64,000 bases of DNA, from assembly GCA_902523895.1 (NCBI GenBank), contig CABZAZ010000001.1:1-64000 (forward strand), written 5' to 3'. A model generated the notes under the pieces. The model saw only the letters and a list, made by a program, of their open reading frames with translations, did no database searches and was not told the origin of the DNA. Made by a program: the position numbers and the translations under genes. The DNA is from an uncultured Pelagibacteraceae bacterium (GTDB lineage: Bacteria; Pseudomonadota; Alphaproteobacteria; Pelagibacterales; Pelagibacteraceae). Every line of letters begins with the position of its first letter. Position 1 is the stretch's first letter. Below, in pieces: positions 110 to 14,159 of the stretch.

Positions 110-186
110 TGGTGGGCCCGCCAGGACTCGAACCTGGGACCAATACATTATGAGTGTACTGCTCTAACCAACTGAGCTACAGGCCC
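110..186 (-). tRNA. tRNA with CAU anticodon (tRNA-Ile2 favoured, or tRNA-Met)
   Basis: Read on the minus strand this folds as a 77-nt cloverleaf. The acceptor is GGGCCTG against CGGGCCC, with an encoded CCA. The D arm has the normal TTGGT loop, the anticodon loop is CTCATAA (anticodon CAT), and the T loop is TTCGAGT. The CTCATAA loop and the GGGCC...GGCCC acceptor look more like bacterial isoleucine-2 tRNA (C34 modified to lysidine by TilS) than elongator Met, but sequence alone does not settle it. The 5' half (154-186) is repeated at 13979-14011, so this gene marks the left attachment site of the island. Its 5' half and promoter were probably supplied by the island. Confidence 0.9.
154..186. 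repeat. 33-bp direct repeat, left attachment site (attL)
   Basis: These 33 bases, from the tRNA 5' end into the anticodon stem, recur exactly at 13979-14011. The match stops abruptly on both sides. Direct repeats of part of a tRNA gene at both ends of accessory DNA are the usual trace of site-specific integration by a tyrosine recombinase. Here the repeat covers the 5' half of the tRNA, whereas the 3' half is the more common target. Confidence 0.85.
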
Positions 187-202
187 TTTGTAAAACTTAG
201 GT

Positions 203-228
203 TTTATATCATTAAAAAAGTTAATCAA
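203..228 (-). promoter_or_regulatory. Possible island-borne promoter for the CAU tRNA
   Basis: On the minus strand TTGATT (223-228) is followed, after a short 14-bp gap, by TATAAA (203-208). That box ends 16 bp before the tRNA 5' end. The spacing is short for a sigma-70 promoter, so this is tentative. The location makes sense because the original upstream sequence of this tRNA now lies 13.8 kb away. Confidence 0.35.
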
Positions 229-276
229 GAGCGAATGTTTATATTTTGTTTCTGTTTGTTTCTGTCTGTAATTGCA

Positions 277-300
277 TTTGTTGGTAAATCCGTTGGTAAG
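277..300. repeat. Left arm-type repeats (GTTGGTAA twice)
   Basis: GTTGGTAA occurs twice within 24 bp here. The 13-mer TTTGTTGGTAAAT at 277-289 recurs exactly near the other island end at 13876-13888, again followed by a second GTTGGTAA. Pairs of short repeats just inside the core repeats are what arm-binding sites of tyrosine integrases look like. That role is inferred. Confidence 0.5.
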
Positions 301-306
301 TAAATT

Positions 307-822
307 TTAAACTTTTGAGATATAAAACTTATTTTTTTCTAATTTTTTTTGTTCTTCTTTAACAAATTTTATTGCTAAATCTTTATTCTTAACTTTTTTT
401 ATACAGTAATCTACTTGGTAGCCTAATTCAATGTCTTGAAAAAATAATAATATATAAAAGCATTTATTAATTTTTGAACTTAATATGAAATAAAAATACC
501 AAGGAGTTGGTTCTTTATCTCCATAGGCGAAAAGATAATCTTTCTCTAATTTAAAATTACTATGGACATAACTTAATAAATTTCCACTCTCCCTTGCTTG
601 ATCTATAAAATCACCGTTATTTTCAATAATATCATTTGCAAATTTTTCATGACTTATTTTTTTAATAGAGCTTGATTTTACTAAATCACCAATTAAGTCT
701 GGATGATTTTTAGGTAAATTGGGAGGATAACTAATCTTATTCTTGCATTGTTTATCTAAATATTTAATAAATTTATTTAAATCAAAATTTTCAACTAAGT
801 CATCAAAGCTATATTTCTTCAT
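307..822 (-). CDS. Hypothetical protein, 171 aa
   Basis: This is the last gene of a minus-strand island operon, 12 bp after the gene at 835-1275. The protein has a charged N-terminal half and a hydrophobic aromatic stretch in the middle (PTPWYFYFILSS, then FYILLFF), followed by a lysine-rich C-terminus. The hydrophobic part could be a buried beta-sheet or a weak membrane segment. I recognise no family or catalytic motif. Position downstream of the Cas4-like nuclease suggests a shared function with that module, but this is inference only. Confidence 0.65.
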   Translation of the reverse strand: MKKYSFDDLVENFDLNKFIKYLDKQCKNKISYPPNLPKNHPDLIGDLVKSSSIKKISHEKFANDIIENNGDFIDQARESGNLLSYVHSNFKLEKDYLFAYGDKEPTPWYFYFILSSKINKCFYILLFFQDIELGYQVDYCIKKVKNKDLAIKFVKEEQKKLEKNKFYISKV

Positions 823-834
823 CTAATCATTCTA

Positions 835-1275
835 TCATTCTATTTCAGTTAACCATTTGGGCCAAGACCTTGATTCTAATTTTCTATCAAGCTTAAATTC
901 GTTGATAATCATTCTTAAAATTTCAGACTTTGAATATCCTTCTTTAAAAAGCTCTTTTGCTCTTTTAATTTTAGCATTTTTAAGTTTTTGAACTTCTGAA
1001 CTAAATTGAACTAAATTGGATTGATCTCCACCAGAGTTTCCCAATGCTCTTTTATTTCCTTGCATAGATTTAGCTCTTTTTTCTTCAAGAATTTTTGTAA
1101 GCTTTTTTCTTTTCCTTAAAGCTTCCTCAGCTAAAAATTTACTATTATAAATTTGTAACCCTCTAAACTCCATTGGGATATTGCTATTTTTAGTTTGGGG
1201 AGTAGAAAATAAAATCTTATATTTTCCATTTGGATTTTTTTTATCAACAGGTCTGATTTTATTGTGATTGCTCAT
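835..1275 (-). CDS. Hypothetical basic protein, 146 aa
   Basis: A strongly basic, mostly helical protein with no family that I recognise. The first 55 residues look beta-rich (KYKILFSTPQ, MEFRGLQIYNSK). Then comes a long lysine/arginine-rich helix, and near the C-terminus AKELFKEGYSKSEILRMI, which resembles a small helix-turn-helix. This would fit nucleic-acid binding, but no known fold is matched. Its start overlaps the end of the upstream gene by 17 bp, so the two are probably translationally coupled. Confidence 0.65.
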   Translation of the reverse strand: MSNHNKIRPVDKKNPNGKYKILFSTPQTKNSNIPMEFRGLQIYNSKFLAEEALRKRKKLTKILEEKRAKSMQGNKRALGNSGGDQSNLVQFSSEVQKLKNAKIKRAKELFKEGYSKSEILRMIINEFKLDRKLESRSWPKWLTEIE

Positions 1276-1546
1276 CTTTACTGTCTCTAACTTTTTTAAG
1301 CATTTTTATCTCAGTTTCAATCATTTCAAATTTATGACAATCACATCTGTAAATAAAATACTTCATTATATTATATGGAAGAAAATATAATTTTAGGATC
1401 AAATTTAACAAAGGCTTATCTTCATAGAACTTTTTCTTAGCATTCATATGAAGCTGTCTATGAGTAATTAACCATCCTAGATAATTTCTCCATTCCATTC
1501 GATTTTCTAATCTCTCTTTAATTATTTCATCAAGATTATTTTTCAT
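1259..1546 (-). CDS. Hypothetical protein, 95 aa
   Basis: I chose the ATG at 1546 (MKNNLDEIIKERL) over an upstream in-frame start at 1630. The longer form would overlap the nuclease gene by about 95 bp, whereas the chosen start overlaps it by only 11 bp, as is usual for coupled genes. The protein is helical and basic, with a hydrophobic middle (LLNLILKLYFLPYNIMKYFIY) and a CDCH motif that might bind metal. No family is recognised. Confidence 0.55.
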   Translation of the reverse strand: MKNNLDEIIKERLENRMEWRNYLGWLITHRQLHMNAKKKFYEDKPLLNLILKLYFLPYNIMKYFIYRCDCHKFEMIETEIKMLKKVRDSKDEQSQ

Positions 1547-2315
1547 TAGCCATCCTTCCTGCCGAAACAAAATAACTACAATTTTCACATTCTTCATTTG
1601 GTTCAGGTGGTTCATCTTCATGAAGTACATCTAAATATTTTGTAAGAGTTTTCATAAAGTTTTTAAGATCATATTTTACCTCAGTAAACTTGAATGAAAA
1701 ATCTATAGAAATATTGTCTTTATTTTTTAGTTCCTCAGGATAGATGAATACGAGACCTAATAAACTTGTTTTATTTATAGCAATTTTCTTTATCTTTTTT
1801 AAAGTCTCCTCAACACTTTTTATAATTGAATCAGGTTTTTTAGCTTTACTATGTTCAGCTAAAAATTTTTTATCAGTTTCTAAATTTGAATATAATAAAC
1901 TATATCCATGTAGTTGAGGGGCATATTCATTTACCTTTTTCTTTAACTCTTTGGTGTAGTCTTTACCATTTTTTTCTTTAAACTTGGAAGTTTTGTAATC
2001 AATGATACCTGAGCTTCCATCTTCAAAGTCAATAATAGCATCTCCTTTTCCTTTTATTCTAAAGGGTCTATTTTTATTATCTTTTAAAATTTTTGAAAAA
2101 AATGAGATATTAAATGGATCAATTGTTTCACCGTTTTTTATATTTTTGTCAATTTTTTTTACATCTCCTAAAAAATAGTCTTTTTCCATACTATCTAATG
2201 TTTGAGTCACTCCAGCAGAAATCTTTTTAGGATAAAGATTGAAGTTTTTGCCTATATAAGCACAATGATCGCACACATATGATAATTCGCTCGGGCTAAT
2301 AGTGTAAGTTTTCAT
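1536..2315 (-). CDS. Cas4/RecB-like PD-(D/E)XK nuclease, 259 aa
   Basis: Predicted DNA exonuclease of the PDDEXK_1/Cas4-like superfamily, probably with an iron-sulfur cluster. Visible motifs in order: a Cys pair CDHC at residues 15-18, GKGDAII with Asp92, the active-site strand IIDYKT (Asp106, Lys108), Gln134 in the following helix, and a C-terminal pair CENC at 243-246. Four cysteines placed this way are typical of Cas4 and AddB-type nucleases. The start ATG shares one base with the stop of the regulator gene upstream (TAATG). No CRISPR array or other cas gene is in the window, so a role in CRISPR adaptation is not supported; general DNA processing or defence is more likely. Confidence 0.8.
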   Translation of the reverse strand: MKTYTISPSELSYVCDHCAYIGKNFNLYPKKISAGVTQTLDSMEKDYFLGDVKKIDKNIKNGETIDPFNISFFSKILKDNKNRPFRIKGKGDAIIDFEDGSSGIIDYKTSKFKEKNGKDYTKELKKKVNEYAPQLHGYSLLYSNLETDKKFLAEHSKAKKPDSIIKSVEETLKKIKKIAINKTSLLGLVFIYPEELKNKDNISIDFSFKFTEVKYDLKNFMKTLTKYLDVLHEDEPPEPNEECENCSYFVSAGRMANEK

Positions 2316-2506
2316 TAGTTTAAACTCCCATTATAATGATAATGATCTTTTTCCTCTTCACCAGTTTTAAAATTATTAACTAAAAATCTAACAACTTCAG
2401 CTCTGGACAGCTTAATACCAGGAGTTAATTCTGTTGTTAGCTCTTCTATTTTTTTATAGCAATTATTGTCTATCGCTACGGATTTGTACTTTGTTTTGTC
2501 AGTCAT
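2315..2506 (-). CDS. Ribbon-helix-helix type regulator, 63 aa
   Basis: A small protein with a beta-strand (KYKSVAID), a helix (CYKKIEELTTEL) and a second helix (SRAEVVRFLVNN). This is the pattern of CopG/Arc-type ribbon-helix-helix DNA-binding proteins, which act as dimers. I chose the ATG at 2506 because GGAAAGAG lies at the right distance; an ATG at 2512 would leave no spacing. It is first in the operon with the Cas4-like nuclease. A perfect inverted repeat lies immediately upstream (2521-2533), so autorepression is likely. Confidence 0.65.
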   Translation of the reverse strand: MTDKTKYKSVAIDNNCYKKIEELTTELTPGIKLSRAEVVRFLVNNFKTGEEEKDHYHYNGSLN

Positions 2507-2520
2507 ATACATCTCTTTCC

Positions 2521-2533
2521 GAACTAAAAGTTC
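2521..2533. promoter_or_regulatory. Inverted-repeat operator candidate
   Basis: GAACT-AAA-AGTTC is a perfect 5-bp inverted repeat with a 3-bp centre. On the minus strand it directly follows a TATAAA -10-like box (about 2535-2540) and precedes the ribosome-binding site of the ribbon-helix-helix gene. A repressor bound here would cover the transcription start. Confidence 0.5.
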
Positions 2534-2753
2534 ATTTTATATTTTGGTAAAATTTGAGATGAAGTTTATGTTGCACTTGGCAACAAAATGAAGGTAAAGG
2601 CTTCAACCAATTTGTGGGCTTCACAAAATTTACCGTTAATTAGAATATAATGATTCTTACAAGCCTTTTCAATATCAAAAAAAATATTTTTTAGCTTTAT
2701 ATTCTCCTATACTCTCCTATAAAATTTTGTAGCTTTTCAGGGCACTGCTCTAG
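2534..2753. other. Intergenic stretch with a decayed-looking open frame
   Basis: About 220 bp between the regulator promoter and the small gene to its right. On the minus strand an open frame of about 40 codons runs from about 2703 to 2568, ending in FILLPSAT and a TAA. It has no ATG, GTG or TTG start, although AGGAGA lies just upstream. It reads like the tail of a gene that lost its front. Nothing else was identified. Confidence 0.35.
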
Positions 2754-2927
2754 CTATTTTTTGTTCTTAATTTTAAATCCATTTTTTTCTAAGACTTTTA
2801 TTAAATTCTTTAGTCTTTCATCTCTTGAAGTATTTTGATCTCCTATACTTTCAAAAAATATAGTTTTTAAACCTTTTTTTTCTTTTGATTTAAAAAAGTC
2901 TCTTATTGATTGTATTTTTATTTTCAT
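2754..2927 (-). CDS. Small hypothetical protein, 57 aa
   Basis: A short frame begins with ATG at 2927 and ends at TAG (2754-2756). It starts MKIKIQSIRDFF and ends GFKIKNKK. A strong Shine-Dalgarno sequence, TAAAGGAGA, lies immediately upstream (2931-2939). The composition (lysine-rich, amphipathic helices, SRDERLKNLIKVLEKNG) fits a real small protein. No family is recognised. It sits alone between the Cas4-like operon and an oppositely oriented gene. Confidence 0.5.
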   Translation of the reverse strand: MKIKIQSIRDFFKSKEKKGLKTIFFESIGDQNTSRDERLKNLIKVLEKNGFKIKNKK

Positions 2928-3074
2928 GTTTCTCCTTTAGCGTTTTATTTTAAGTCCTAGCAAGTAGAGTTATGTTCTAAATCAGGACTAATTAATCTTA
3001 TCATACTTAAGACATAATTAAAAATTATATTATTAATTGTTAATCAATTTTCTTAATTTAGATACTTCAAAAAT

Positions 3075-3413
3075 ATGCAGCAATTAGAACTGTTTGATTA
3101 CAGAAAAGATTATCTTTTTGATAATAAAAATCAGGTTGCTCACTGGTACGATATCCTTAAAGAAACTGAAGACACTATTAGTTATGCAGAACACATTGAT
3201 CCTAATAAAGGCTATGCGATAGCAGGTATGGAATATGAGGAATATGTGGATGTGAAAAAAGATAGGTTGAAAGGACTTACTTATGATCAAATCCTCACAT
3301 ACTTAAAAAGTGCTAAAAAAGAGGACAGGCTTAAAAAATATAAAGCATTACTAAAATTTAGAAACATTCCTTTTGAAGCTGATCTTTTTACCTGGCATAA
3401 TGAAGATATTTAG
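3075..3413 (+). CDS. Hypothetical protein, 112 aa
   Basis: A soluble, acidic N-terminal part (LELFDYRKDYLF) is followed by helical, charged sequence with tyrosines and ending in FTWHNEDI. No signal peptide, membrane segment or known motif is visible. Its stop lies 4 bp into the end of the convergent gene at 3410-3778. The preceding 147 bp (2928-3074) are very AT-rich and probably hold its promoter. Confidence 0.6.
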   Translation: MQQLELFDYRKDYLFDNKNQVAHWYDILKETEDTISYAEHIDPNKGYAIAGMEYEEYVDVKKDRLKGLTYDQILTYLKSAKKEDRLKKYKALLKFRNIPFEADLFTWHNEDI

Positions 3414-3778
3414 TTTTGGATATACGTATTTTTTACATCACATAAATAATGATCTAAAAATTTATCATTTTTATAATCATATTTTGACATAGACATTACA
3501 GGGTTTTTTTCCTCAAACTCATGTATTTGAAAACCTAATTCATATTCTGGGAACCTAGCCGCAAAAAAATCTTTTTTAATTGTTAAGTCTTTATTGGATA
3601 TTTCAATATATTTACTTTCCTTTTCATCAAAATACTGGAAGGTCGTAACATCAAATTTGAATTTTTGAATTTTATAGTTTTTATCAAGTAAGTTTTTCAT
3701 ATTCACACAAGAAATCTTAACTCCTTGATCTGCATAAACGAATGAGGGGAAAATAATTAAAAATAATAAGAAACGCAT
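3410..3778 (-). CDS. Small exported hypothetical protein, 122 aa
   Basis: The N-terminus is a short signal peptide (MRFLLFLIIFPSFVYA, probable cleavage after YA), so the mature protein should be periplasmic. Two cysteines, one near the mature N-terminus (KISCVN) and one near the C-terminus (HYLCDV), could form a disulfide. No family is assigned. It is transcribed away from the large DNA-binding protein gene, and the roughly 110 bp between them must hold divergent promoters. Confidence 0.65.
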   Translation of the reverse strand: MRFLLFLIIFPSFVYADQGVKISCVNMKNLLDKNYKIQKFKFDVTTFQYFDEKESKYIEISNKDLTIKKDFFAARFPEYELGFQIHEFEEKNPVMSMSKYDYKNDKFLDHYLCDVKNTYIQN

Positions 3779-3885
3779 AAGCCTACATATAATTTATATT
3801 GTTGTTATTTTTCCGGCTTAATTGTGTTCTAAAAAGATTTATTTATTTAGGAAACCATAATAAATTGATTAAAAAAATTATTTAT

Positions 3886-6270
3886 ATGACTAACTATTCT
3901 GAAAACGAATTAATACCTCATGCTTTGAAAATTATAAAAGAACACAAAGATGGAATAGATATGAAAAATCTCTTAATTGAATTAAGAGATTCGATGAAAC
4001 CAGATGGTGTTGATTGTGAAATATTGAAAAATAGATCTGATGATAAATTCAGTCAAAAAGTAAGAAATTTAAAATCTCATAAAACTTTAGAAAAACAAAA
4101 TTTAGTAGATTGTAAAGCTGGTAAATTTTATATAAGCCAAGATGGACTAAATTTTTTGTGGGATTTAAAAAAAAATATTAAAACCATTGGTAAAAAATTT
4201 AATATAAGTCAGGAAGGATTAAAGTTAATAAAGGAAGAAAATTATGATTTACTCTCTATAAATATTCTTAATGACTGGCCAATATCTGTAAGAACTTACA
4301 ATGCCCTTAAAGGAGAAAATATAATATTCTTGGGTGATTTAATCACTTACACAGAATCTAATAATTCATTTGCATCACTTTTAAGAATTAAAAATTTCGG
4401 TAGAAAATCATTAAATGAAATAAGTGAGTTATATCGAAAAATAACCACAGATATTAATATAACAAATTTCAACCCATCAAAATGGGAAAATCTTAGAGAA
4501 AAATTAATTCTTGATCAGAAAAAAAAACTTATAGATAAAATTGAAAGTCAAAAGGGTCTAAAAGGATTTAATAAATCACTATTTAAAAATTTTGAGGAAT
4601 TTAAGGAATTTTTTTATAAAATTGAAAAAATAGTCATAAATCCAAATATTGAAGCTTCTAAATTGGAAAAATTAATTTTAGTAGATATAGATTATATTCA
4701 ATCTTTGTTTACAGATAGAACAGTTGACTTTTTTAAAGGTAGATATGGTTATAAAGAAGAATACAAAACACTTGATCAATTGGGAAAGAAATATGAAATA
4801 ACACGTGAAAGAGTGAGACAATTAGAGAGAGATTTAAATTCAACATTAGTTCGATTAGGAAAAATTGATAAAAATTCTTTAGTTCGTTTCTTTGATAAAT
4901 ACGAGTACGTTAGCTTTCACAAATTATTTCCGACTTTAGATAAAAATTTTACAGATACAGCAAGAGGCACCGGAGAAATAACTAGAGACAAATTAGTTAT
5001 ATTTATGGAAAATTTTTGTGGTGTTAAAGAGGAATATTTTAAGACACCAGAAAGAGAGTTGTGGCATTTTGATGTGTATAAGCTGCAAGAAATATTCACA
5101 TTAATCCCCAGTGGACTTGATCAAGAAAATTTTATTGAAATTATAAAGGATAACTTTGGTTATAATAATTTTGTTGCTAAATCGGCAATTGAATTTATGG
5201 ATGAAAAAGAGCTTATTAAAATTCAGAATAATAAAATTTATCCAATAAAAATTTCAAAAAATTTAGAAGTTACAAATATTTTAGTTTCATATCCTGAAGG
5301 TTTACATTGGAGAAAAATTGCTGAAATTGGGAATAAATCATTCACTAAAAACAAATGGGATTTAAATAGAATTGTTGGTGACTCATCATTAAATATGCTT
5401 AGCAATCAAAATATATATCTTGTTGAAAGAGGAACTTACAAGCTTTTTAAATTTTGCCCGGAAATTAAAAACAAAGATATGATAATTGAGAGATTTATTA
5501 GATATCTAAAAAATAACAAATTAGAACAATCACCAATGGAACCAATATTTAAAGAAATAAGTAATTTGTCAGATTTTAAAGATTTAAACTTTTATGATGC
5601 AAGAGCTATCATAAAAAAATTTGGCACAGAAAAAGGATTGTTTCACAAAGGAACTTCGGGAACCAATACAATTAGTTTAAATGAAAATATTAAAGTTATC
5701 TCTTTAAAAGATAAAATTAGAGATGTCATTTTTAATTCTTCAGGTGAAATTCATTTGCAAGATATTATAAAAAAACTTCAAAAAACTAATGAAGATGTTC
5801 CTGTTGATATACATTTAAATGATTTAGTGGATGAAATGAAAATATTTCGAATTAGTCCTGGTACATTTTTAAACTTTGAGGATGGTATCAAACTTTGTGA
5901 CAAGGACGATGTTAAATCTGTTTTAAATGAAGTTTTAGATAATTATGAATTTATTACAACTGGCTTTATCAGAGAATTGGTAAATGATAGGCTGGGTTTT
6001 AACTTATCTAATTTTTATTACGATACTCTTACGAGATTATTAGCTAAAGAAAATAATTGGTATTATGGGGCGAATTACTTAAGTAAAAATAGGAAAAAAA
6101 CAATAGGTGGAAAAAAATATATAATAGAAAACTATGATGAAAATTTAAGCACTAATGAAAATTTTCAAATTCTATCTAAGAAAATAGGTATTTCAAAAAT
6201 GTATTACAATAATATAGTCTATCAGTATAAAGATAATTTTAATACTGACTGGATACATAAAGATGACTAA
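3886..6270 (+). CDS. RNAP-alpha-CTD-like / sigma-region-4-like DNA-binding protein, 794 aa
   Basis: First gene of the defence operon. I chose ATG 3886 (MTNYSENELI) over an upstream frame start at 3799 whose extra residues look non-coding. Residues about 125-185 contain a helix-hairpin-helix domain like the RNA polymerase alpha C-terminal domain (SVRTYNALK, then LLRIKNFGRKSLNEI). Residues about 294-325 contain a sigma-70 region-4-like helix-turn-helix (TLDQLGKKYEITRERVRQLE). The remaining 470 residues are charged and helical, with no enzyme motif seen. Family knowledge suggests promoter-like or specific DNA recognition; a sensor or regulator for the system is inferred. Its end overlaps the next gene by 8 bp. 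Confidence 0.75.
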   Translation: MTNYSENELIPHALKIIKEHKDGIDMKNLLIELRDSMKPDGVDCEILKNRSDDKFSQKVRNLKSHKTLEKQNLVDCKAGKFYISQDGLNFLWDLKKNIKTIGKKFNISQEGLKLIKEENYDLLSINILNDWPISVRTYNALKGENIIFLGDLITYTESNNSFASLLRIKNFGRKSLNEISELYRKITTDINITNFNPSKWENLREKLILDQKKKLIDKIESQKGLKGFNKSLFKNFEEFKEFFYKIEKIVINPNIEASKLEKLILVDIDYIQSLFTDRTVDFFKGRYGYKEEYKTLDQLGKKYEITRERVRQLERDLNSTLVRLGKIDKNSLVRFFDKYEYVSFHKLFPTLDKNFTDTARGTGEITRDKLVIFMENFCGVKEEYFKTPERELWHFDVYKLQEIFTLIPSGLDQENFIEIIKDNFGYNNFVAKSAIEFMDEKELIKIQNNKIYPIKISKNLEVTNILVSYPEGLHWRKIAEIGNKSFTKNKWDLNRIVGDSSLNMLSNQNIYLVERGTYKLFKFCPEIKNKDMIIERFIRYLKNNKLEQSPMEPIFKEISNLSDFKDLNFYDARAIIKKFGTEKGLFHKGTSGTNTISLNENIKVISLKDKIRDVIFNSSGEIHLQDIIKKLQKTNEDVPVDIHLNDLVDEMKIFRISPGTFLNFEDGIKLCDKDDVKSVLNEVLDNYEFITTGFIRELVNDRLGFNLSNFYYDTLTRLLAKENNWYYGANYLSKNRKKTIGGKKYIIENYDENLSTNENFQILSKKIGISKMYYNNIVYQYKDNFNTDWIHKDD

Positions 6271-6628
6271 AAATCCTAATTGGAATTACCCCGAATTAGT
6301 ACTTGCTTTAGAATTGTACATGTTACATAGACCAAATCCTCCAGGAAAAAATTCAAGAGAAGTAAAAATCTTAAGTAATCTATTAAGATTAAATGGTTTG
6401 GCAGATAGAATAAAATTAAATAAAACTTTTAGAAATGTAAATGGAGTAGCTATGAAACTTCAAAATTTTAGAAGATTCGATGAAATGTTTAAAGGAAAAG
6501 GTTTAAGAGCAGGAGGTGGACTTGAGAGAGATATATGGGACCGATTTCAAAATTTTAAAAAACTTCAAAAAGCAAGTGATACAATCAGAAGAAATATAGA
6601 AACAAAAGTTGAGAGTTTAAATGACTAA
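6263..6628 (+). CDS. Stand-alone HNH-nuclease N-terminal-like domain, 121 aa
   Basis: The pattern WNYPELVLALELYM, then HRPNPPGKNSREV, FRNVNGVAMKLQNFRRFD, KGLRAGGGLERDIWDRF matches, from memory, a domain commonly found N-terminal to HNH restriction endonucleases. Here it ends after about 115 residues and no HNH motif (paired His/Asn/His or Cys pairs) follows. It probably contributes DNA or partner recognition rather than cleavage. It overlaps its neighbours on both sides by the same 8 bases (ATGACTAA), implying tight translational coupling within the defence operon. Confidence 0.65.
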   Translation: MTKNPNWNYPELVLALELYMLHRPNPPGKNSREVKILSNLLRLNGLADRIKLNKTFRNVNGVAMKLQNFRRFDEMFKGKGLRAGGGLERDIWDRFQNFKKLQKASDTIRRNIETKVESLND

Positions 6629-8177
6629 AGAAAATGAAAATTTTGAGATAGATTTTAGTCCTGAAATTCAAGCATTATCGTACTTTGCACATATTCCATA
6701 TACTCCAATGTCTGCAATTGCTGAATTTGTAGATAACTCTTTGCAGAGTTATCTTAATAATGACAAAAAATTACACAAAATTCATTCTCCAAGTTGGAAA
6801 CTTCGAATAGGAATTTATATAACAAAGTCAAAAATATTAATTGAAGATAATGCTGCTGGTATAAATAGACAAGATTGTGACAGAGCTTTTAAGGCTGGCG
6901 CCGCACCTGATGAGGAAGACAAAGGTTTATCCGAGTTTGGGATGGGAATGAAAACAGCTGCATTATGGTTTTCAAAAGCATTTGAAGTTCAAAGTTCTGC
7001 TCTAGGTGAAAAAGTAGAAAGAACTGTTAAATTTGATTTAGACAAAGCGTTAGATGAAGGTTTAGTTAAATTTAAACCAAAAATACAAACTACTTCAGCA
7101 AATCAACATGGCACAAAAGTTATTTTAAATAAATTACGAAGAGAACAAACAGCTAGAACTAAAAAACAAATAAAAGAATATCTGTCATCTATGTATAGAC
7201 ATTTCATAAACAAAAATAGGATTGAAATAAGAGTAGACAATGAAAAATTGAGTTATGAAATGCCTCCTATATTAAATGCACCTTTTTTTCATGAGGTAGG
7301 TAAAGCGAAGAGTAATAAAAAAATTAAATGGTTAAAAAAATTTTCTTTTTCCTATGCATCTAAAAAAGCACACGGATTTGCAGGTATTTTTGATGAGGGA
7401 AATATTGGATTTGCAAAAACTAAGTATGCAGGTTTTAACTTATTTAGATTTGACAGACTAATACAGGGTGTGGGAGAAAATAAGGGATACAGACCACCAC
7501 AAATATTTGGAAATCCACAAAGTCATTCATACCAAAGAATTTTTGGTGAAATTCATTTAGATGGTCAATCTGTTTCTCATATTAAAGATGGATTCATCTG
7601 GGATGACCAAGAAGAATTTGAGTTTATTGAAAAATTAAAAAAAAATTTACAAACAGGTGATGTTAATATATTTGATCAAGCAAAAAATTATCGACTAGAT
7701 AGAAGAGCAAGAGATGTAAAAGTTCAAACTTCAGAAGGTTTGGATGGTGCTATAAAGTTGGCTCCAGCTGCTTTAAAAATTCTTGAAGAAAAAAAAATAC
7801 CTCGCCAAGTAGAAACTACAAAAGAAAAACCTAAACCAAAAGACAAAGAAGTAAGAAGAAAACAAATGAAGTTTGAAGGATATACTTGGAATTTTGAAAT
7901 AATTTTAAACTATGATAAAAATGAAAGAGATTGGATACAGGTTTTTGAAAAAGGAAATAAAACAAAGGATATTACTATTATAATAGCAATGGGAATGGGA
8001 TTTACTCAACAATATTTTGGGTCTAGACCTGATGAGGTTGAGGGAATGCTTGCAATCATAGAATATATTGCTTTGGCAGAAATTGTTGAAAAATCAAGAG
8101 GAACTTCAAAAGCTCATGCAATAAGAATGTCTTTAAATGAAATTATAAGAAGACAGCCCCCAGATCTGGGATATTAA
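6621..8177 (+). CDS. MORC/MutL-like GHKL ATPase, 518 aa
   Basis: Predicted DNA-associated ATPase of the GHKL fold (Hsp90, MutL, gyrase B, MORC). Visible motifs: N-box AEFVDN at 34-39 with catalytic Glu35 and Mg-binding Asn39, IEDNAAGI at 74-81, and the glycine-rich lid GLSEFGMGMKTA at 102-113 with Lys111. A second alpha/beta domain follows to about residue 350. A lysine-rich linker (about 395-415) leads to a C-terminal domain of its own. Prokaryotic MORC-type proteins of this kind are known next to Z1 and restriction-nuclease genes in predicted restriction-modification systems (Iyer, Abhiman and Aravind 2008), exactly as here. Confidence 0.85.
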   Translation: MTKENENFEIDFSPEIQALSYFAHIPYTPMSAIAEFVDNSLQSYLNNDKKLHKIHSPSWKLRIGIYITKSKILIEDNAAGINRQDCDRAFKAGAAPDEEDKGLSEFGMGMKTAALWFSKAFEVQSSALGEKVERTVKFDLDKALDEGLVKFKPKIQTTSANQHGTKVILNKLRREQTARTKKQIKEYLSSMYRHFINKNRIEIRVDNEKLSYEMPPILNAPFFHEVGKAKSNKKIKWLKKFSFSYASKKAHGFAGIFDEGNIGFAKTKYAGFNLFRFDRLIQGVGENKGYRPPQIFGNPQSHSYQRIFGEIHLDGQSVSHIKDGFIWDDQEEFEFIEKLKKNLQTGDVNIFDQAKNYRLDRRARDVKVQTSEGLDGAIKLAPAALKILEEKKIPRQVETTKEKPKPKDKEVRRKQMKFEGYTWNFEIILNYDKNERDWIQVFEKGNKTKDITIIIAMGMGFTQQYFGSRPDEVEGMLAIIEYIALAEIVEKSRGTSKAHAIRMSLNEIIRRQPPDLGY

Positions 8178-8183
8178 ATAGAT

Positions 8184-10733
8184 ATGAATACAACAGTTTC
8201 AGTAGAAAATAAAAGTCCAAAAAAATGGGAACCTAATAGAGAAGGTTCAAAATTTAGTGAGTGGTTAAAATCAAAAAAACAGAGTAATAAAAACATAAAC
8301 GAAAGTGACATTTCTGAACAAGCCTCAATCATACTCTCAAAATGTATTGATCCAAATAATCAAACTCACTCAAATTTAGACTCAACAGGTCTCGTAATAG
8401 GTCAAGTTCAAAGTGGAAAAACTTTATCCATGACTTCTGTTACAGCTATGGCAAAAGATAATGGTTTTGGAATAGTAATAATAATGTCAGGATCAGTTAG
8501 TCCTTTATCTTTTCAAACCGCAGGTAGAATTACTGCAGAATTAAAGGGACGAAGAATGTATAGAATAATCAATAATCCAAAAGATCCTTGGAGAAGTGAA
8601 CAATATTCAAGTACATTAAGAACCTTTTCTGAAAACTTTAAAGATAAAAATTTTCCTGAAGATAGAAAAAAAACTCTATTGATTGTTACTCATAAGAACC
8701 CTGCCAGAATTAGGATGTTAACTTCATTATTTCAAGATGAGAGTTCAAATATAAAAGATATACCAACATTGATAATTGACGACGAGTGCGACCATCACTC
8801 TTTGAATAGTAAAGATTATCAAAATGAAGTTAAAAATTTATCTGAAAAACAAAGAAATCGACTTGATGAAATTTATCAGATTAGTGAAGGAGATACTTGG
8901 GAAAGTATTTCTGAGACATACGCAACGAGTGAAGAATACTTAAAAGATATTAACAATTTTGAGGATGACAAATTACCACCTCCCGGAACATATATTTTAT
9001 TAAGAGAACTAGAGACAGCAACTTTTCGTGAAATAAATAATTTACGATCGATTTTTTCTTTTCATACTTATCTCGGTTATACTGCAACACCACAAGCTTT
9101 GACTGTTATTGATCAAATAAATAATCTTAAACCATCATTTGTGCACTTACTTCCACCTGGAAAAGGTTATACAGGTTTAGAGCATTTTTTTCCTAGGGAG
9201 GAAAAATCTTTTAAACACAAAAATAATTTTCACATTAATTCAATTGAAGAAGATTTGAATGATATTATTTCAAATAATACAAGACCGAAAAGTTTAGAAA
9301 ATGCTGTAATAACTTTTATTATTTCTGTTGCTAGTGGCCTAGCAAATAAAGAGGATGAAGAGGAAGATAGTAATAGATCTATGATTATTCACCCACATAG
9401 TGAAGTAAAAGATCACTTTACGTTTTATAATTATACTAAAGGTATACTTGATGAAATAAAAAACGGTCTCAAAGCTGACAAAAAAGACTCTGCATATATT
9501 GAAACAGTCGAAATCTTAAAAAGTACATATGAAAATTATAACAAAAAAAATTCTCCAAAAAATTTACCTGAATTCAATGATAGTTTTTTATCTTTTATAA
9601 AAATAGCTATTTCTGAAACACAGCTATTTGAGTTTAACGCAAGCGAGAGAAATAAAAGGATACCAGAAATTAAGTGGGATGAATTATACTCAGCAATACT
9701 GGTCGGTGGAGTGGGTCTAGAGAGAGGATATACTGTAAATGGATTAACAATATCTTATTTATCTAGAAAAGTTGGTGGTAAACAACAAGATACTCTATTA
9801 CAGAGGGCTCGTTTTTTTGGATATCATGAAAACTATGAAAGTTTTATTCAAATTTATCTATCTGATAATTTACAAAAATATTATAGAGAAATATCTGAAA
9901 TAAATAAAAATTTTATTAATAGTGTGAATGATTTTACAACTAATCATCCAGAAAAAAGTTTTAAAGATTGGCCAGGTATTTGGTTTGGTTCAGGTGTTGC
10001 TAAGCATGAACTTACAAGAAAAGGAATTATTAGAAGCAAAACTCTTTTTAGATACAAAGCTGAAGAACCTATTGTAAATAAATTTTCTCATCTTCTTAAT
10101 AAAAATGATTTGATTAACAATTACAAAATTTATTTAAAACTTGAACAAACTTTAAAAGATAGTTTAGTGCCAATTTCAGAAATGGATGATATTGAACCTG
10201 TATATAAAGAATGGGCTAAAAATAGAAAAGATATTCTTATCTCAAAAAAGTTAAATATATCGGATCTTTATGATTACTTTTATAAAGATTTAAAATTTCA
10301 TAATTTTGAGTGGAAAGATTTTTTACTAGCCTCCTTAAACTTCAAAGGATATTCAGAAGATGAAAGAAAAGAGATCAATCAAAGAATTTGTCCTATTATT
10401 TTTATGAATTATCAAAGTGAGAACAGTGAAGATAGAACTAGATCTAATCTAAAAGGAAGTTCAGCTATTAATCCACACGCAGGAAAAAACAAAAAATATA
10501 ATAAAGAAAATAAAGAAACATATAATTTATTTCCTGGAGCCAGAGAAATACATTATGATTTTTTAAGAGGAGCAACTAAACCAACTAAAGGCAAATCTAT
10601 TGGTCTAGAGTACCCAACACTACAAATTTATTTATATAATGTAAATTGTAAGGGTACAGTTACTGAAACAGTCCCATATTTTAATGTTTATCCGGCTTTA
10701 AATTTATGGCGAGATCTATTAAAAGTAAATTAA
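8184..10733 (+). CDS. Z1-domain superfamily-2 helicase-like ATPase, 849 aa
   Basis: Predicted DNA translocase or helicase subunit of the restriction system. Walker A is GQVQSGKT at 73-80; the Walker B region LIIDDECDHH is near 195-205; a TATP motif (GYTATPQA) is near 298-305. The Z1 domain follows, with VGGVGLERGYTVNGL and an arginine-finger motif LLQRARFFGY near 505-555. The full length (849 aa) is usual for Z1 proteins. It begins 6 bp after the GHKL ATPase gene and is followed 1 bp later by the nuclease gene, so the three are co-transcribed. Confidence 0.88.
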   Translation: MNTTVSVENKSPKKWEPNREGSKFSEWLKSKKQSNKNINESDISEQASIILSKCIDPNNQTHSNLDSTGLVIGQVQSGKTLSMTSVTAMAKDNGFGIVIIMSGSVSPLSFQTAGRITAELKGRRMYRIINNPKDPWRSEQYSSTLRTFSENFKDKNFPEDRKKTLLIVTHKNPARIRMLTSLFQDESSNIKDIPTLIIDDECDHHSLNSKDYQNEVKNLSEKQRNRLDEIYQISEGDTWESISETYATSEEYLKDINNFEDDKLPPPGTYILLRELETATFREINNLRSIFSFHTYLGYTATPQALTVIDQINNLKPSFVHLLPPGKGYTGLEHFFPREEKSFKHKNNFHINSIEEDLNDIISNNTRPKSLENAVITFIISVASGLANKEDEEEDSNRSMIIHPHSEVKDHFTFYNYTKGILDEIKNGLKADKKDSAYIETVEILKSTYENYNKKNSPKNLPEFNDSFLSFIKIAISETQLFEFNASERNKRIPEIKWDELYSAILVGGVGLERGYTVNGLTISYLSRKVGGKQQDTLLQRARFFGYHENYESFIQIYLSDNLQKYYREISEINKNFINSVNDFTTNHPEKSFKDWPGIWFGSGVAKHELTRKGIIRSKTLFRYKAEEPIVNKFSHLLNKNDLINNYKIYLKLEQTLKDSLVPISEMDDIEPVYKEWAKNRKDILISKKLNISDLYDYFYKDLKFHNFEWKDFLLASLNFKGYSEDERKEINQRICPIIFMNYQSENSEDRTRSNLKGSSAINPHAGKNKKYNKENKETYNLFPGAREIHYDFLRGATKPTKGKSIGLEYPTLQIYLYNVNCKGTVTETVPYFNVYPALNLWRDLLKVN

Positions 10734-10734
10734 A

Positions 10735-11701
10735 ATGCCTACGCTAGAGGAAATTTTCAAAAATCTTGACACACCTGACGAAGAAGTAGAAGATGTTTTT
10801 AAAACTGAATTAATCTTTGGCAAATATCATAGAATTGGAAAAAATTATAAAGGACTTCCCTCAATACTTATTTTTACAAAAAAAAGATGAAAGAATATCG
10901 GCCCCTTATAAGGGACAGAATATAAGGCTTAGATTCAATATAAATTGTAAAATAAAAGAGAAAGATGAAAATCAAAATTATACGATTTTGTCTTGTATAT
11001 CAAGCGAACCACAGACAATAAAAATTTTTTTAGATATTTGCGAAACTTCAATTTCACAGCTAGGCGACGAACCTACTTCTAAAGAAATAAAAAATAATAC
11101 TGATATCCTCATAGATTTATTTAAAGAACTTCCAAATAAACAATCAAGTATAATTGGTTTATGGGGTGAATTGTTTTTAATAGCAAGTAGTAAAAATATT
11201 ACTAAATCGTTAGAGGCTTGGCATCAACATGCAGAGGATAAATATGATTTCTATGATAATAATGAAGCTTTAGAGGTAAAATGTACTACCCAAACAGATA
11301 GAAAACATCAATTCAAACATGACCAATTAGTCAGTAATTTAAAAGATCATTATGTTGTATCTATTATGATAAGTGAGGATCCAGCAAAGGGCTTGAGTGT
11401 GGTTGATCTTTATGAGGATATTAAAAAAAATTGTAGTTCAGATAATTTAAATAATAAATTGAAGAAAATATTTTTTAAAATTGTTGGAAAAACTCCTTTT
11501 GAGGAATTAAATGAATATAAATATGATTTAAATTTTTCAAAAAAAAACCTGTTATATTTTAAAGTAAAAGGACTTAGTAAACTTGAAAATAAAGATGAGT
11601 CTATTTCAAATATATATTATACAATTGACCTAGCTCAAAAAAAAAGTGTAGATAATTTAAGCAACGATAAATTTACTTCTTATCTTTATTTTCCTAATTG
11701 A
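10735..11701 (+). CDS. PD-(D/E)XK restriction nuclease, frameshifted at A8 run
   Basis: The gene appears to start at ATG 10735 (MPTLEEIFKNL) and run to an A8 run at 10878-10885. There the frame must skip one base to continue as KDERISAPYKG and on to the stop at 11701. Removing one A gives an uninterrupted 321-aa protein. The downstream part also forms a 294-aa frame from ATG 10817, whose first 20 or so residues are out of frame with the family. Nuclease signature: IIGLWGELFLI, then an Asp in KYDFYD and LEVK (Glu and Lys) about 10 residues later, as in the DUF4420-type PD-(D/E)XK proteins that accompany Z1 genes. Inferred to be the cutting subunit. The lesion may be sequencing error or real. 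Confidence 0.78.
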
Positions 11702-11706
11702 TAAGA

Positions 11707-12708
11707 TTAAAAAAACTGTTTTTTAATCTGTCTTGAAATTACTTTTGCAAGCAAAGGTGGAACTGCATTTCCTACTAATCTCCATTGATCTTTAAAATCA
11801 CCAACTAATTTATAATTGTCAGGAAATGTTTGAATTCTTTTAATTTCATTGATTCTTAAAAATCTATTTTTCCAATGAAATGGGCCCATATTATTTGAGA
11901 AACTAGCTTGAATTGTCCATGAGGGTTCTTTGGGTGATAACTTTAATAAAAATGACCAATAGCGCGATCGCCATTTAAATTTTGGACGAGGATGACCTCT
12001 CTCTTTTGTAAAAAAAAGATAATTATCTCCAGGAGGAATTCGCTTTAGCAAGTGTTTGTGTTTTGAGCCTGCTAACTTATTTTTATCCTCAGGTAAGTTT
12101 TTATCTAGATCTCCAATAGCTAGTTTGCAATTTATCCATTTTTTCTTTTTTTTTTTAAAATGAGTAATTTTAGGAAAATCAAATTTTCCAAATCTTTTTA
12201 AAACTCCTACACATATAAATCTATGTCGAACTTGTGGTACACCATAATCAGCACAATTAATAACCTTATAAGATAAATTGTAACCTGCTTTTTTACATTC
12301 TTTTTCAAAAAAATGTAAAGCAGGTTTATGAGGTTTAAAACAAAACCCATGAACATTTTCAAAAAAAAATACTTTTGGTTTGATTTGTTTTAAAGCTTTG
12401 CAGAAATATATTAGAGTATATGAATCTTTGTCCTCTAATGCTCTTTTTTTTCTTTTGATATAAAACCTAGATTTTGAGTATGGCGGACAAGGAGGTCCAC
12501 CAACAATAATATCTACCTTACCAATAAATTTTTTAAAGTTTATATCTTTAATGTCAGAACAAATTATATTTTTTGTAATTTTATTTTTCTTTAGAGTTTC
12601 ACAAGCGATATCCCAATTATCTATAGCAGCGTGTGTTTCAAATGAATTGCTTCTAAAGCCAATGTCAATGCCACCTGCACCAGAGAATAAGCTTAAAATT
12701 TTTTTCAT
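11707..12708 (-). CDS. DNA cytosine-5 methyltransferase 1, 333 aa
   Basis: All main m5C motifs are present in order: I SLFSGAGG (S-adenosylmethionine binding), IV GGPPCPPYS with the catalytic Cys, VI FFFENVHG, VIII QVRHRF, and X LVGNAVPP. The variable target-recognition region lies between VIII and X. The gene ends 5 bp from the end of the nuclease gene, convergent to it. It shares the block GPFHWKNR and the following helix with the second methyltransferase, so the two are paralogues with different recognition regions. Likely role: protecting host DNA from the adjacent nuclease. Confidence 0.92.
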   Translation of the reverse strand: MKKILSLFSGAGGIDIGFRSNSFETHAAIDNWDIACETLKKNKITKNIICSDIKDINFKKFIGKVDIIVGGPPCPPYSKSRFYIKRKKRALEDKDSYTLIYFCKALKQIKPKVFFFENVHGFCFKPHKPALHFFEKECKKAGYNLSYKVINCADYGVPQVRHRFICVGVLKRFGKFDFPKITHFKKKKKKWINCKLAIGDLDKNLPEDKNKLAGSKHKHLLKRIPPGDNYLFFTKERGHPRPKFKWRSRYWSFLLKLSPKEPSWTIQASFSNNMGPFHWKNRFLRINEIKRIQTFPDNYKLVGDFKDQWRLVGNAVPPLLAKVISRQIKKQFF

Positions 12709-12779
12709 TAAAACTTATTATTTGATATTACAATTAATTTAAATTTTCTAGCTCGATTTTAAAATTTTTAGGTATTTAT
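12709..12779. other. Spacer between the two methyltransferase genes
   Basis: A very AT-rich 71 bp between the stop of the second and the start of the first methyltransferase gene, both leftward. No convincing promoter, hairpin or ribosome-binding site was seen, so co-transcription from the extended -10 at 13840-13848 is likely. Confidence 0.3.
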
Positions 12780-13823
12780 TCAAATATTTGCTGCTAAATA
12801 TTTAATCATTACTTTTCCAAGTAAAGGCGGTACTGCATTACCTATCTGTCTTTGTATAGATCTTCTATTACCAAAAAATTTATAATTTTTAGGAAAAGTT
12901 TGTATAGCTGCTATCTCAGGAACTCTTAGTCTTCTGTTACTCCAGTGAAAAGGACCGACCCAAGGACCAGGTTGAGCTGCTATTGTCCAAGATGGAAGAT
13001 CTTCTTTTAACTTTAACAAAAAATTCCAAAATCTTGTATTCTTCTTAAAATTTGATTTTTTACCATCACATAAAGCAAGGTAGTTTTCACCGGGTTTTAC
13101 CTTTTTTAATTCTTTATAATAAGTTCCAAGATTTGTTTTTTCATGCTCTTCCTCATAAATATCTTGATCAAATTCTTCAATATGTTTTCCAACTGTTTCG
13201 TAAGGTTTTAAGTTTTTATTAAATAAGTCTGGTTTATTAGGATCATAGTGAGTTTTTTGAGGCTCTTCATTATTGAATTCTTTTTTGGAACCCATAAAAA
13301 AAACTCTTTTTCTCTTTTGAGGAACACCATAGTCTAAAGCGTTAGCTTTAACCATTTTAAAATTATAATTATATTTTTTTGTTTTTCTCAGAATAGTATC
13401 CACTGCTTTTTTATTTGTAGGATGTAAAATACTTTCAACATTTTCAATCAAAAAGCCATCAGGATTTATTTCATCAATAAATTTGAAAAAATCATCAATA
13501 CAATTTCTTGGATCCTTAGTAATTTTTCTATTTTCATTGGTTATCCAGTAACCATTTTTGGAAAAAGGCTGACAAGGTGGGCCACCTATAATTATAGTCT
13601 TGTTGCCGTTTAAATATTTTTCTATTTCTTTAACTTTTGTCTTTTTAATATCCTCTTTGATTATTTTGGTTTCTTTGAACTCTGAATTTAATTCGAGTGT
13701 TCTTACAGAATCCTCATCATTATCTATTGATACTTTCAATTCGATATTGTTTTGTTTAGCGCCTATATCTAAACCTCCAGCACCAGAAAATAAACTAATA
13801 GCTTGTATTTTTGTATTTTTCAT
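12780..13823 (-). CDS. DNA cytosine-5 methyltransferase 2, 347 aa
   Basis: Motifs I SLFSGAGGLDIG, IV GGPPCQPFSKNG, VI FLIENVES, VIII PQKRKRVFF and X QIGNAVPP are intact. I prefer the ATG at 13823 (MKNTKIQ). An in-frame ATG at 13841 overlaps a near-perfect extended -10 element (13840-13848), so transcription would start downstream of it. The gene lies 71 bp upstream of the first methyltransferase on the same strand, and they may be co-transcribed. Two different m5C enzymes beside one nuclease often methylate the two strands of an asymmetric site; this is inferred here. Confidence 0.9.
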   Translation of the reverse strand: MKNTKIQAISLFSGAGGLDIGAKQNNIELKVSIDNDEDSVRTLELNSEFKETKIIKEDIKKTKVKEIEKYLNGNKTIIIGGPPCQPFSKNGYWITNENRKITKDPRNCIDDFFKFIDEINPDGFLIENVESILHPTNKKAVDTILRKTKKYNYNFKMVKANALDYGVPQKRKRVFFMGSKKEFNNEEPQKTHYDPNKPDLFNKNLKPYETVGKHIEEFDQDIYEEEHEKTNLGTYYKELKKVKPGENYLALCDGKKSNFKKNTRFWNFLLKLKEDLPSWTIAAQPGPWVGPFHWSNRRLRVPEIAAIQTFPKNYKFFGNRRSIQRQIGNAVPPLLGKVMIKYLAANI

Positions 13824-13839
13824 AATGAGTCGTTCTATC

Positions 13840-13848
13840 ATTATACCA
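13840..13848 (-). promoter_or_regulatory. Extended -10 promoter element for the methyltransferase genes
   Basis: Minus-strand TGGTATAAT is a perfect extended -10 (TGnTATAAT). No good -35 was seen at normal spacing, which extended -10 promoters can tolerate. The expected start would be near 13833, leaving a very short leader before ATG 13823. A promoter independent of the nuclease operon would let methylation be set up before cutting. Confidence 0.5.
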
Positions 13849-13875
13849 CAAATTATAATTGTCCCGATAATTAGG

Positions 13876-13899
13876 TTTGTTGGTAAATGGTTGGTAAAT
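13876..13899. repeat. Right arm-type repeats (GTTGGTAA twice)
   Basis: TTTGTTGGTAAAT at 13876-13888 is an exact copy of the left-end 13-mer and is followed by GTTGGTAAAT at 13890-13899. It lies 80 bp inside the right attachment repeat. It is probably a recombinase arm-binding site belonging to the island, inferred from symmetry of position. Confidence 0.5.
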
Positions 13900-13978
13900 T
13901 TTTATAGAAAAAAAATTCCTCTAATGGAGGTTCATTTTAAACACTTATTTAGGATATTTTTTTGAGTCGTAAATTTGG

Positions 13979-14011
13979 GTGTACTGCTCTAACCAACTGA
14001 GCTACAGGCCC
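13979..14011 (-). pseudogene. Stranded 5' half of the CAU tRNA (attR)
   Basis: Exact copy of 154-186: acceptor 5' strand, D arm and the start of the anticodon stem. Leftward of it the sequence no longer matches a tRNA, so this copy cannot fold. It retains its native upstream neighbour, tRNA-Val, 58 bp away. Before integration the two were most likely a tRNA pair transcribed leftward. Its position shows that the island entered in the anticodon-stem region and displaced the original 5' half. Confidence 0.85.
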
Positions 14012-14069
14012 AAATCTATACTTTTGTTATAACATACTTAAGAATTTAGCAAATGAAGATAATTATAAT

Positions 14070-14144
14070 TGGTGGGCCGTGTTGGTTACGCTCCAACTAC
14101 CCCTGCAATGTCAATGCAGTACTCTACTATTGAGCTAACGGCCC
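14070..14144 (-). tRNA. tRNA-Val (GAC anticodon) with non-canonical D and T loops
   Basis: A 75-nt cloverleaf on the minus strand. The acceptor GGGCCGT pairs with ACGGCCC and CCA is encoded. The D stem is GCTC/GAGT, the anticodon stem CTGCA/TGCAG with loop TTGACAT (GAC, Val), and the T stem GTTGG/CCAAC. All stems pair well. However, the D loop (AATAGTA) lacks the G18-G19 pair and the T loop (AGCGTAA) lacks the T54-T55-C56 that normally dock with it. It may be a structurally minimal functional tRNA or a decaying one; tRNA-Val(TAC) elsewhere could cover its codons. Confidence 0.75.
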
Positions 14145-14159
14145 CCTGCGTCAATACAA

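Follow-up and report, generated by a model that had tools for sequence, protein, structure and literature searches.

In the window, by which we mean the whole 64,000-nt stretch of Pelagibacteraceae DNA analysed here, a 794-aa protein (protein A; 3886..6270, + strand) combines an alpha-CTD and a sigma region 4, both best known from promoter recognition, with an N-terminal winged helix (wHTH) and a winged-helix-like array. Judging from the sequence, we lean, if only slightly, towards reading A as a swappable subunit that serves a MORC/Z1 ATP-dependent restriction-modification system in recognising or discriminating DNA. This reading draws on the domains and the DNA-contact residues they keep, on the coupling of A to its operon, on motifs in the neighbouring proteins B, C and D, on linked methyltransferases, on an island bracketed by tRNA sequences and on kin of A beside other helicases. 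In such a system the alpha-CTD would read the minor groove of A+T-rich DNA and region 4 the major groove of −35-like sequence, with the winged helices assisting. After binding or inspecting DNA, A would hand it to B, the MORC ATPase, and C, the Z1 translocase, and the nuclease D would cut DNA devoid of the 5mC mark by which the methyltransferases M1 and M2 would label self. That the proteins form a complex, that A chooses the target, that DNA is cleaved and that the set acts against phages is what we infer.

The start codon of A, an ATG at 3886, agrees with the aligned starts of two relatives, which indicates a real ORF. The alpha-CTD occupies residues 130-181 (4273..4428, +) and matches Pfam PF03118 (RNA_pol_A_CTD; 2e-12) with 47.1 bits for a curated cut-off of 23.8, and a whole-genome search led to the same place. 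Region 4 (residues 259-324; 4660..4857, +) was delimited by alignment and by PF04545 (5.3e-7), its Pfam core at residues 284-315 reaching 29.5 bits against Sigma70_r4 with a curated cut-off of 24.1. PDB chains fall on the same two stretches, the best RpoA at 3.8e-9 and the best sigma factor at 9e-5. The alpha-CTD is 41-44% identical across 68 residues to the RpoA of 14 relatives, and the region 4 alignment covers both 4.1 and 4.2. The chimera proposed in the preliminary description from the letters alone is therefore real, both halves lying above the Pfam curated cut-offs, and the likeness extends well past a short helix-turn-helix, which had been named as one outcome that would speak against it. 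A chance match could be excluded since the two domains also recur in relatives. When the genome (G000, 79% complete) was searched for alpha-CTDs, protein A was the sole match; the rpoA of G000 is probably absent from the assembly.

The residues retained in the two domains bear on what they might contact. We number the alpha-CTD after E. coli RpoA and take R265, N268, C269, G296, K298, S299 and E302 to be the DNA-contact (265) determinant and E261 to be a sigma contact. The window alpha-CTD retains R265, N268, G296, K298, S299 and E302 and has alanine for C269, a position that is variable in the A family. With 29 of 68 positions identical overall, identity to RpoA at six of the seven determinant residues has a P of 0.02, a value that takes no account of structural constraint, which could explain part of the retention. 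All six residues are kept in four of the five alpha-CTDs found in A and in its relatives at the loci L017 and L044, the first alpha-CTD of L017 being devoid of K298 and S299. Every one of the five proteins with a visible region 4, the window protein among them, retains the sigma recognition helix (T/S-RER-V/I-RQ). Of the functions offered in the preliminary description, this pattern favours simple DNA binding over a sensing or hijacking of transcription: the DNA face and the recognition helix are preserved, and four of the family's five alpha-CTDs, that of the window among them, have a proline for E261.

The same proline bears on a different reading, in which A would be an adaptor to RNA polymerase, with region 4 on the beta flap or the alpha-CTD on promoter complexes, so that an invader is met at its first transcription. 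The alpha-CTD and sigma region 4 natively work with RNA polymerase, and the presence of both 4.1 and 4.2 would suit this role. However, loss of the presumed sigma contact goes together with a stretch past the recognition helix that has diverged, and the alpha NTD and sigma region 2 have no Pfam match in A, which makes the adaptor distinctly unlikely in our view. Still less credence, close to none, is given to A as a bona fide alternative sigma factor. Region 4 is present, but regions 2 and 3, like the alpha NTD, gave no Pfam match up to E 1, and A carries extra domains on both sides; the candidate was rejected on the missing region 2 match.

The remainder of A includes several segments that look like winged helices. 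The N-terminal one (residues 7-100; 3904..4185, +) is PadR/MarR-like with a VIA-align Z of about 8-9, its block pLDDT in the full-length model ranging from 38 to 79. Further along, residues 461-525 (5266..5460, +) are winged-helix-like by predicted secondary structure, with a pLDDT mostly below 60, and residues 526-601 (5461..5688, +; Z about 8) and 604-664 (5695..5877, +; Z about 8-9) form two winged-helix-like domains; Z values of about 8-9 are at a level that the tool itself calls common, and many kinds of winged helix tie. The structure prediction of full-length A that the preliminary description had called for was run with AlphaFold; it gave a mean pLDDT of 42.9, too poor to show either the alpha-CTD or the region 4 fold. 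In a model of a 256-residue fragment (mean pLDDT 61.5) residues 526-664 again appeared winged-helix-like. Both models were built from two aligned sequences each, and for this reason neither argues against the alpha-CTD or region 4 folds. Residues 461-525 were suspected by eye of being a HARE-HTH; in these low-to-moderate confidence models segments of A have the look of winged helices. No Pfam HARE-HTH match was obtained for A or for the six members of the A5 set, and neither HARE-HTH nor RNAP delta occurs by name among the 50 structure matches listed in each comparison of the A models. A PDB profile search gave five rows, the best of which (E 0.0027) was discarded as spurious, being by name a designed coiled coil. 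No named family was matched by residues 325-794, more than half of the protein, and this we count against A as a DNA-recognition subunit.

The setting of A is that of a defence-type operon, as had been supposed in the preliminary description: the surroundings hold MORC, Z1, DUF4420 and methyltransferase genes. The order is A-S-B-C-D, with A first and the genes tightly coupled. A and S overlap by 8 bases, as do S and B, and C begins at 8184. S is a small protein of 121 aa (6263..6628, +) with a match to the PADLOC HNH model PDLC04132 (1.6e-4) and no Pfam family above cut-off. Protein B (6621..8177, +) is a GHKL ATPase with a MORC S5 motif (Pfam HATPase_c_3, 2.7e-15), and protein C (8184..10733, +) a Z1-domain helicase/ATPase (Pfam Z1, 7.4e-36) with Walker motifs and DThhQXuRhFG. 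Protein D (10735..11701, +) is a DUF4420 PD-(D/E)XK nuclease (Pfam 6.9e-24). Two cytosine-5 DNA methyltransferase genes follow on the − strand, M1 at 11707..12708 (Pfam PF00145, 1.6e-64) and M2 at 12780..13841 (PF00145, 1.1e-55), the latter 38% identical to the former. In all three loci with A-B-C-D, namely the window, L017 and L044, B has the GHKL boxes and the MORC motif GhXhhpXXRhl, C has Walker A and DThhQXuRhFG, and 5mC methyltransferases are linked. D has D..ExK at the same position in the three loci, a loose pattern with chance matches in B and C too. The reading frame of D is broken in the window near an A-run at about 10880 (it is open from 10817) and is open in L017 and L044. The break may be either a real inactivation or a sequencing error, and it is counted against our preferred reading.

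The A proteins of L017 (10001-12583), whose genome is placed in the same genus as that of the window, and of L044 (7597-10197) each have a region 4 and two alpha-CTDs. The window protein is devoid of most of the first alpha-CTD present in these two. It is 71% identical to the L044 protein over residues 115-794, and the A proteins of L017 and L044 are 53% identical to each other. L044 has A-B-C-D without S at a different genomic site, together with a methyltransferase of the L017 type (74% identity), which is of another type than that of the window (about 28%). The A proteins and the methyltransferases thus do not track each other: between the window and L044 the A proteins are close but the methyltransferase types differ, and L017 and L044 show the reverse. 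This is the chief difficulty for our preferred reading, in which a recognition subunit should go with its methyltransferase. This independent variation weakens the idea of A as a partner that follows the sequence recognised by the methyltransferase, and A may instead recognise something else (a DNA state, transcription or features of an invader) or play a regulatory part. Of 397 family genomes, 16 have Z1 genes, 15 of them above cut-off. Ten of the 16 had their Z1 surroundings examined (the window, L017, L044 and L060-L066), and A was present in three. A may be accessory, as L060 and other loci have B-C-D but no A.

A regulatory part could take the form of a controller-like transcription regulator of the island, which would bind the operon promoter and time the synthesis of the methyltransferases and the nuclease. 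The recognisable domains of A are all DNA-binding types, two of them from promoter recognition, and A opens the operon in the window, L017 and L044 and precedes other genes in L045. On the other hand, A is much bigger than known controller proteins, and in L047 it lies downstream of a nuclease-helicase ORF. Promoter-like sites in 3400-14200 number 57 for a shuffle mean of 62, thus without excess. Moreover, the stop of A overlaps the start of the following gene in all three A-B-C-D loci, an arrangement that fits a complex of fixed ratio and suggests a structural subunit. Taken together, we hold the regulator to be doubtful.

More distant relatives of A were sought with a profile of the stretch after region 4 (A4), because a genome search with the whole of A (115 of 150 genomes) and the A3 profile (353 of 385) were flooded by apparent rpoA and rpoD. 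The A4 profile matched 5 of 397 genomes in the family sample, including the window's own genome and one with the contig of L017; of the 398 genomes in the phylum sample it matched none but the window's own. A scan of genome contigs with patterns of the window protein found L017 only. In L047 a shorter A overlaps by 20 bases an upstream Mrr-ResIII nuclease-helicase ORF; its region 4 is sub-threshold (E 0.0047) and its alpha-CTD has no Pfam match. In L045 the C-terminal part of A stands before genes for a ParB-like protein (a weak assignment, E 0.001, under cut-off), an SNF2 helicase and a NOV_C protein, the contig end removing the part of A where the alpha-CTD and region 4 would lie. Plasmid records matching A amounted to ten, seven of them over the alpha-CTD side only. 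The plasmid protein L018 has Pfam region 4 only, with an alpha-CTD below Pfam detection, and is followed downstream by genes for an AAA ATPase and a DUF4145 protein. Used as query, it found the same three enterobacterial plasmid records only. Of 1035 matching E. coli genome records, one spans the greater part of the two L018 genes; in the seven others listed the match extends over 34-44 bases and mostly coincides with an IS3 transposase. The chimera proposed from the window is thus borne out by two relatives with both domains and does not, by Pfam, extend to L018, with region 4 only, or to the sub-threshold region 4 of L047. In all, the A family occurs in three kinds of helicase-bearing gene set and beside a plasmid AAA ATPase gene.

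Attachment of A relatives to different gene sets would also be expected if A were an integrated decoy or portable infection sensor, in which RNA polymerase-like baits, once bound or modified by phage proteins as a phage takes over transcription, would unleash the attached helicase-nuclease, the effectors being unrelated from one setting to another. R265 of RpoA is modified by T4 enzymes and sigma region 4 is a target of phage anti-sigma proteins; in A, the arginine equivalent to R265 is kept, and identity to the alpha-CTD of relatives' RpoA is about 43%. Against this, both domains have diverged from host-type copies, the alpha-CTD falls below Pfam detection in L018 and L047, and no phage counterpart is known here. 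We consider the decoy very unlikely. No relative of A was matched in 50,697 phage records, and pattern scans of IMG/VR for A and B confirmed none on viral contigs. Among the literature matches, those of the decoy type held nothing beyond unrelated or marginal work.

The window and L060 form a natural matched pair in which the role of A is directly testable: flanks and methyltransferases are common to both, and A and S are present in the window only. At the DNA level L060 corresponds to the window in the left flank (830-3407) at 91.6% and on the methyltransferase side (11710-14011) at 81-94%. Its B, C and D have diverged (34-38% identity to the window proteins), and L060 B is closer to L017 B, at 50%. 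An MTaX1 gene sits between the methyltransferase genes of L060. MTaX1 is described as potentially involved in telling modified DNA apart (PMC10853773). Its presence where A and S are missing leads us to propose that A plus S may fill the MTaX1 slot. A third locus, L061, with related methyltransferases, encodes a 504-aa protein (3420-4934) made of MTaX1 and a middle part akin to S, the S-like stretch being 33% identical over 96 residues (E 4e-8 against this one protein, 6.7e-6 in a small set). By eye, the 504-aa protein has a possible PD-(D/E)XK end; it may be a discrimination module plus nuclease in one chain. The proposal for the slot is based on the three loci, the window, L060 and L061, and L044 has A without S and without a recognised MTaX1 among the proteins scanned.

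The operon is part of an island bracketed by tRNA sequences. On the left, a complete tRNA-Met (110..186, −; ARAGORN and repeat search) forms an att-like end, and on the right a partial copy of it (13976..14011, −; repeat search) adjoins a tRNA-Val. The right repeat measures 36 nt and has one mismatch to 151-186; the layout is repeated in L017. The duplicated part is the 5′ half of the tRNA-Met, which is unusual for an att-like repeat. Between the window and L017, DNA identity is 81-85% in the common flanks and 66-72% in the matching operon stretches. The island is apparently mobile, as deduced from the tRNA repeat and gene swapping. No integrase family was matched by the 13 window island proteins scanned (14 island ORFs were listed, one short antisense ORF being left out). 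Small genes fill the window from 835 to 2315, among them one for a PD-(D/E)XK (PDDEXK_1) protein, and this stretch, with 85-92% DNA identity in L017 and L060, is a stable left arm of the island; a PHROG exonuclease match within it is weak (5e-4). Past the right repeat of L060, positions 12600-12771 resemble window 144-315, beside the left tRNA-Met, which suggests tandem insertion of elements at the tRNA-Met site.

The host of the island is a marine bacterium of SAR11 type. Few bacterial groups in the ocean are as abundant as SAR11, and its restriction systems have, as far as we are aware, been little studied. If A does select DNA, the promoter-reading parts of RNA polymerase would have been re-used by restriction systems as target readers, and one module would have moved among at least three helicase-bearing gene settings.

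Each element of the proposed DNA-reading subunit has a precedent in BREX, which we count in favour of this role. In PglW three wHTH modules come after a helical domain resembling the alpha-CTD, and BrxL has a sigma-like N-terminal HTH, according to PMC12839542. A differs from both in having the alpha-CTD and region 4 in one chain, and kinase, AAA and Lon domains gave no Pfam match in A. A protein annotated as 'sigma factor-like helix-turn-helix DNA-binding protein' on plasmids of E. coli (IncHI1A) and two Salmonella (L018) is homologous to A over a stretch that starts shortly ahead of region 4 and ends at residue 726, with 23.7% identity. Aravind and Iyer are said to have described, in 2012, bacterial proteins that join RNA polymerase alpha and sigma features with HARE-HTH. 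This would be the same odd mixture of alpha, sigma and wHTH parts as in A, where HARE-HTH is not detected by profile.

As a gene set, the window operon resembles MZA (mzaABCDE) in its GHKL ATPase, Z1 protein, DUF4420 nuclease and sigma-like protein. It differs in the presence of methyltransferases and in the AIPR protein, which we take to be MzaE and for which no match was found among the 13 window island proteins scanned. The NCBIfam models for MzaB, MzaC and MzaD gave 27.7, 78.6 and 19.2 bits with cut-offs of 850, 1500 and 420, placing the window proteins as homologous but outside the curated families. MzaA gave 24.3 bits against A with a cut-off of 800. The MzaA model has its region 4 near the C-terminal end and A matches it there only; A was accordingly rejected as an MzaA orthologue. 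The surroundings of L064 (GHKL, Z1, DUF4420, AIPR and methyltransferase) come close to MZA-like content, with no A seen nearby.

A putative type I system of Z1, DUF4420 (printed DUF4220) and a cytosine methyltransferase is described in PMC9523054. The window shares its three core genes and, if A, S and B are counted as the extras, likewise comes to six; the three extra genes of the published system are unnamed in the text at hand. The motifs of MORC/paraMORC restriction-modification operons with a Z1-type helicase were defined by Iyer, Abhiman and Aravind in 2008 (PMC2292703). By these motifs, the window operon corresponds to their third type, with GhXhhpXXRhl in B, DThhQXuRhFG in C, D..ExK in D and adjacent 5mC methylases; the full nuclease motif of this type is E-D-ExK, and D was assessed on the D..ExK part together with its DUF4420 match. 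The Figure 2 legend names Candidatus Pelagibacter among the drawn operons, and some such operon of the Pelagibacter group would thus appear to be published already. In its main text, as available, 'sigma' and 'RNA polymerase' have 0 occurrences each and no A-like protein is described. Nor was an A-like protein in a Z1/MORC operon recognised among the literature matches listed, a scope that mostly leaves out subscription papers. The predicted window set therefore fails the curated MZA models yet fits the motifs of the Z1-type MORC restriction operons. The parts of A are already known; it is their combination, and its swapping between systems, that is unusual.
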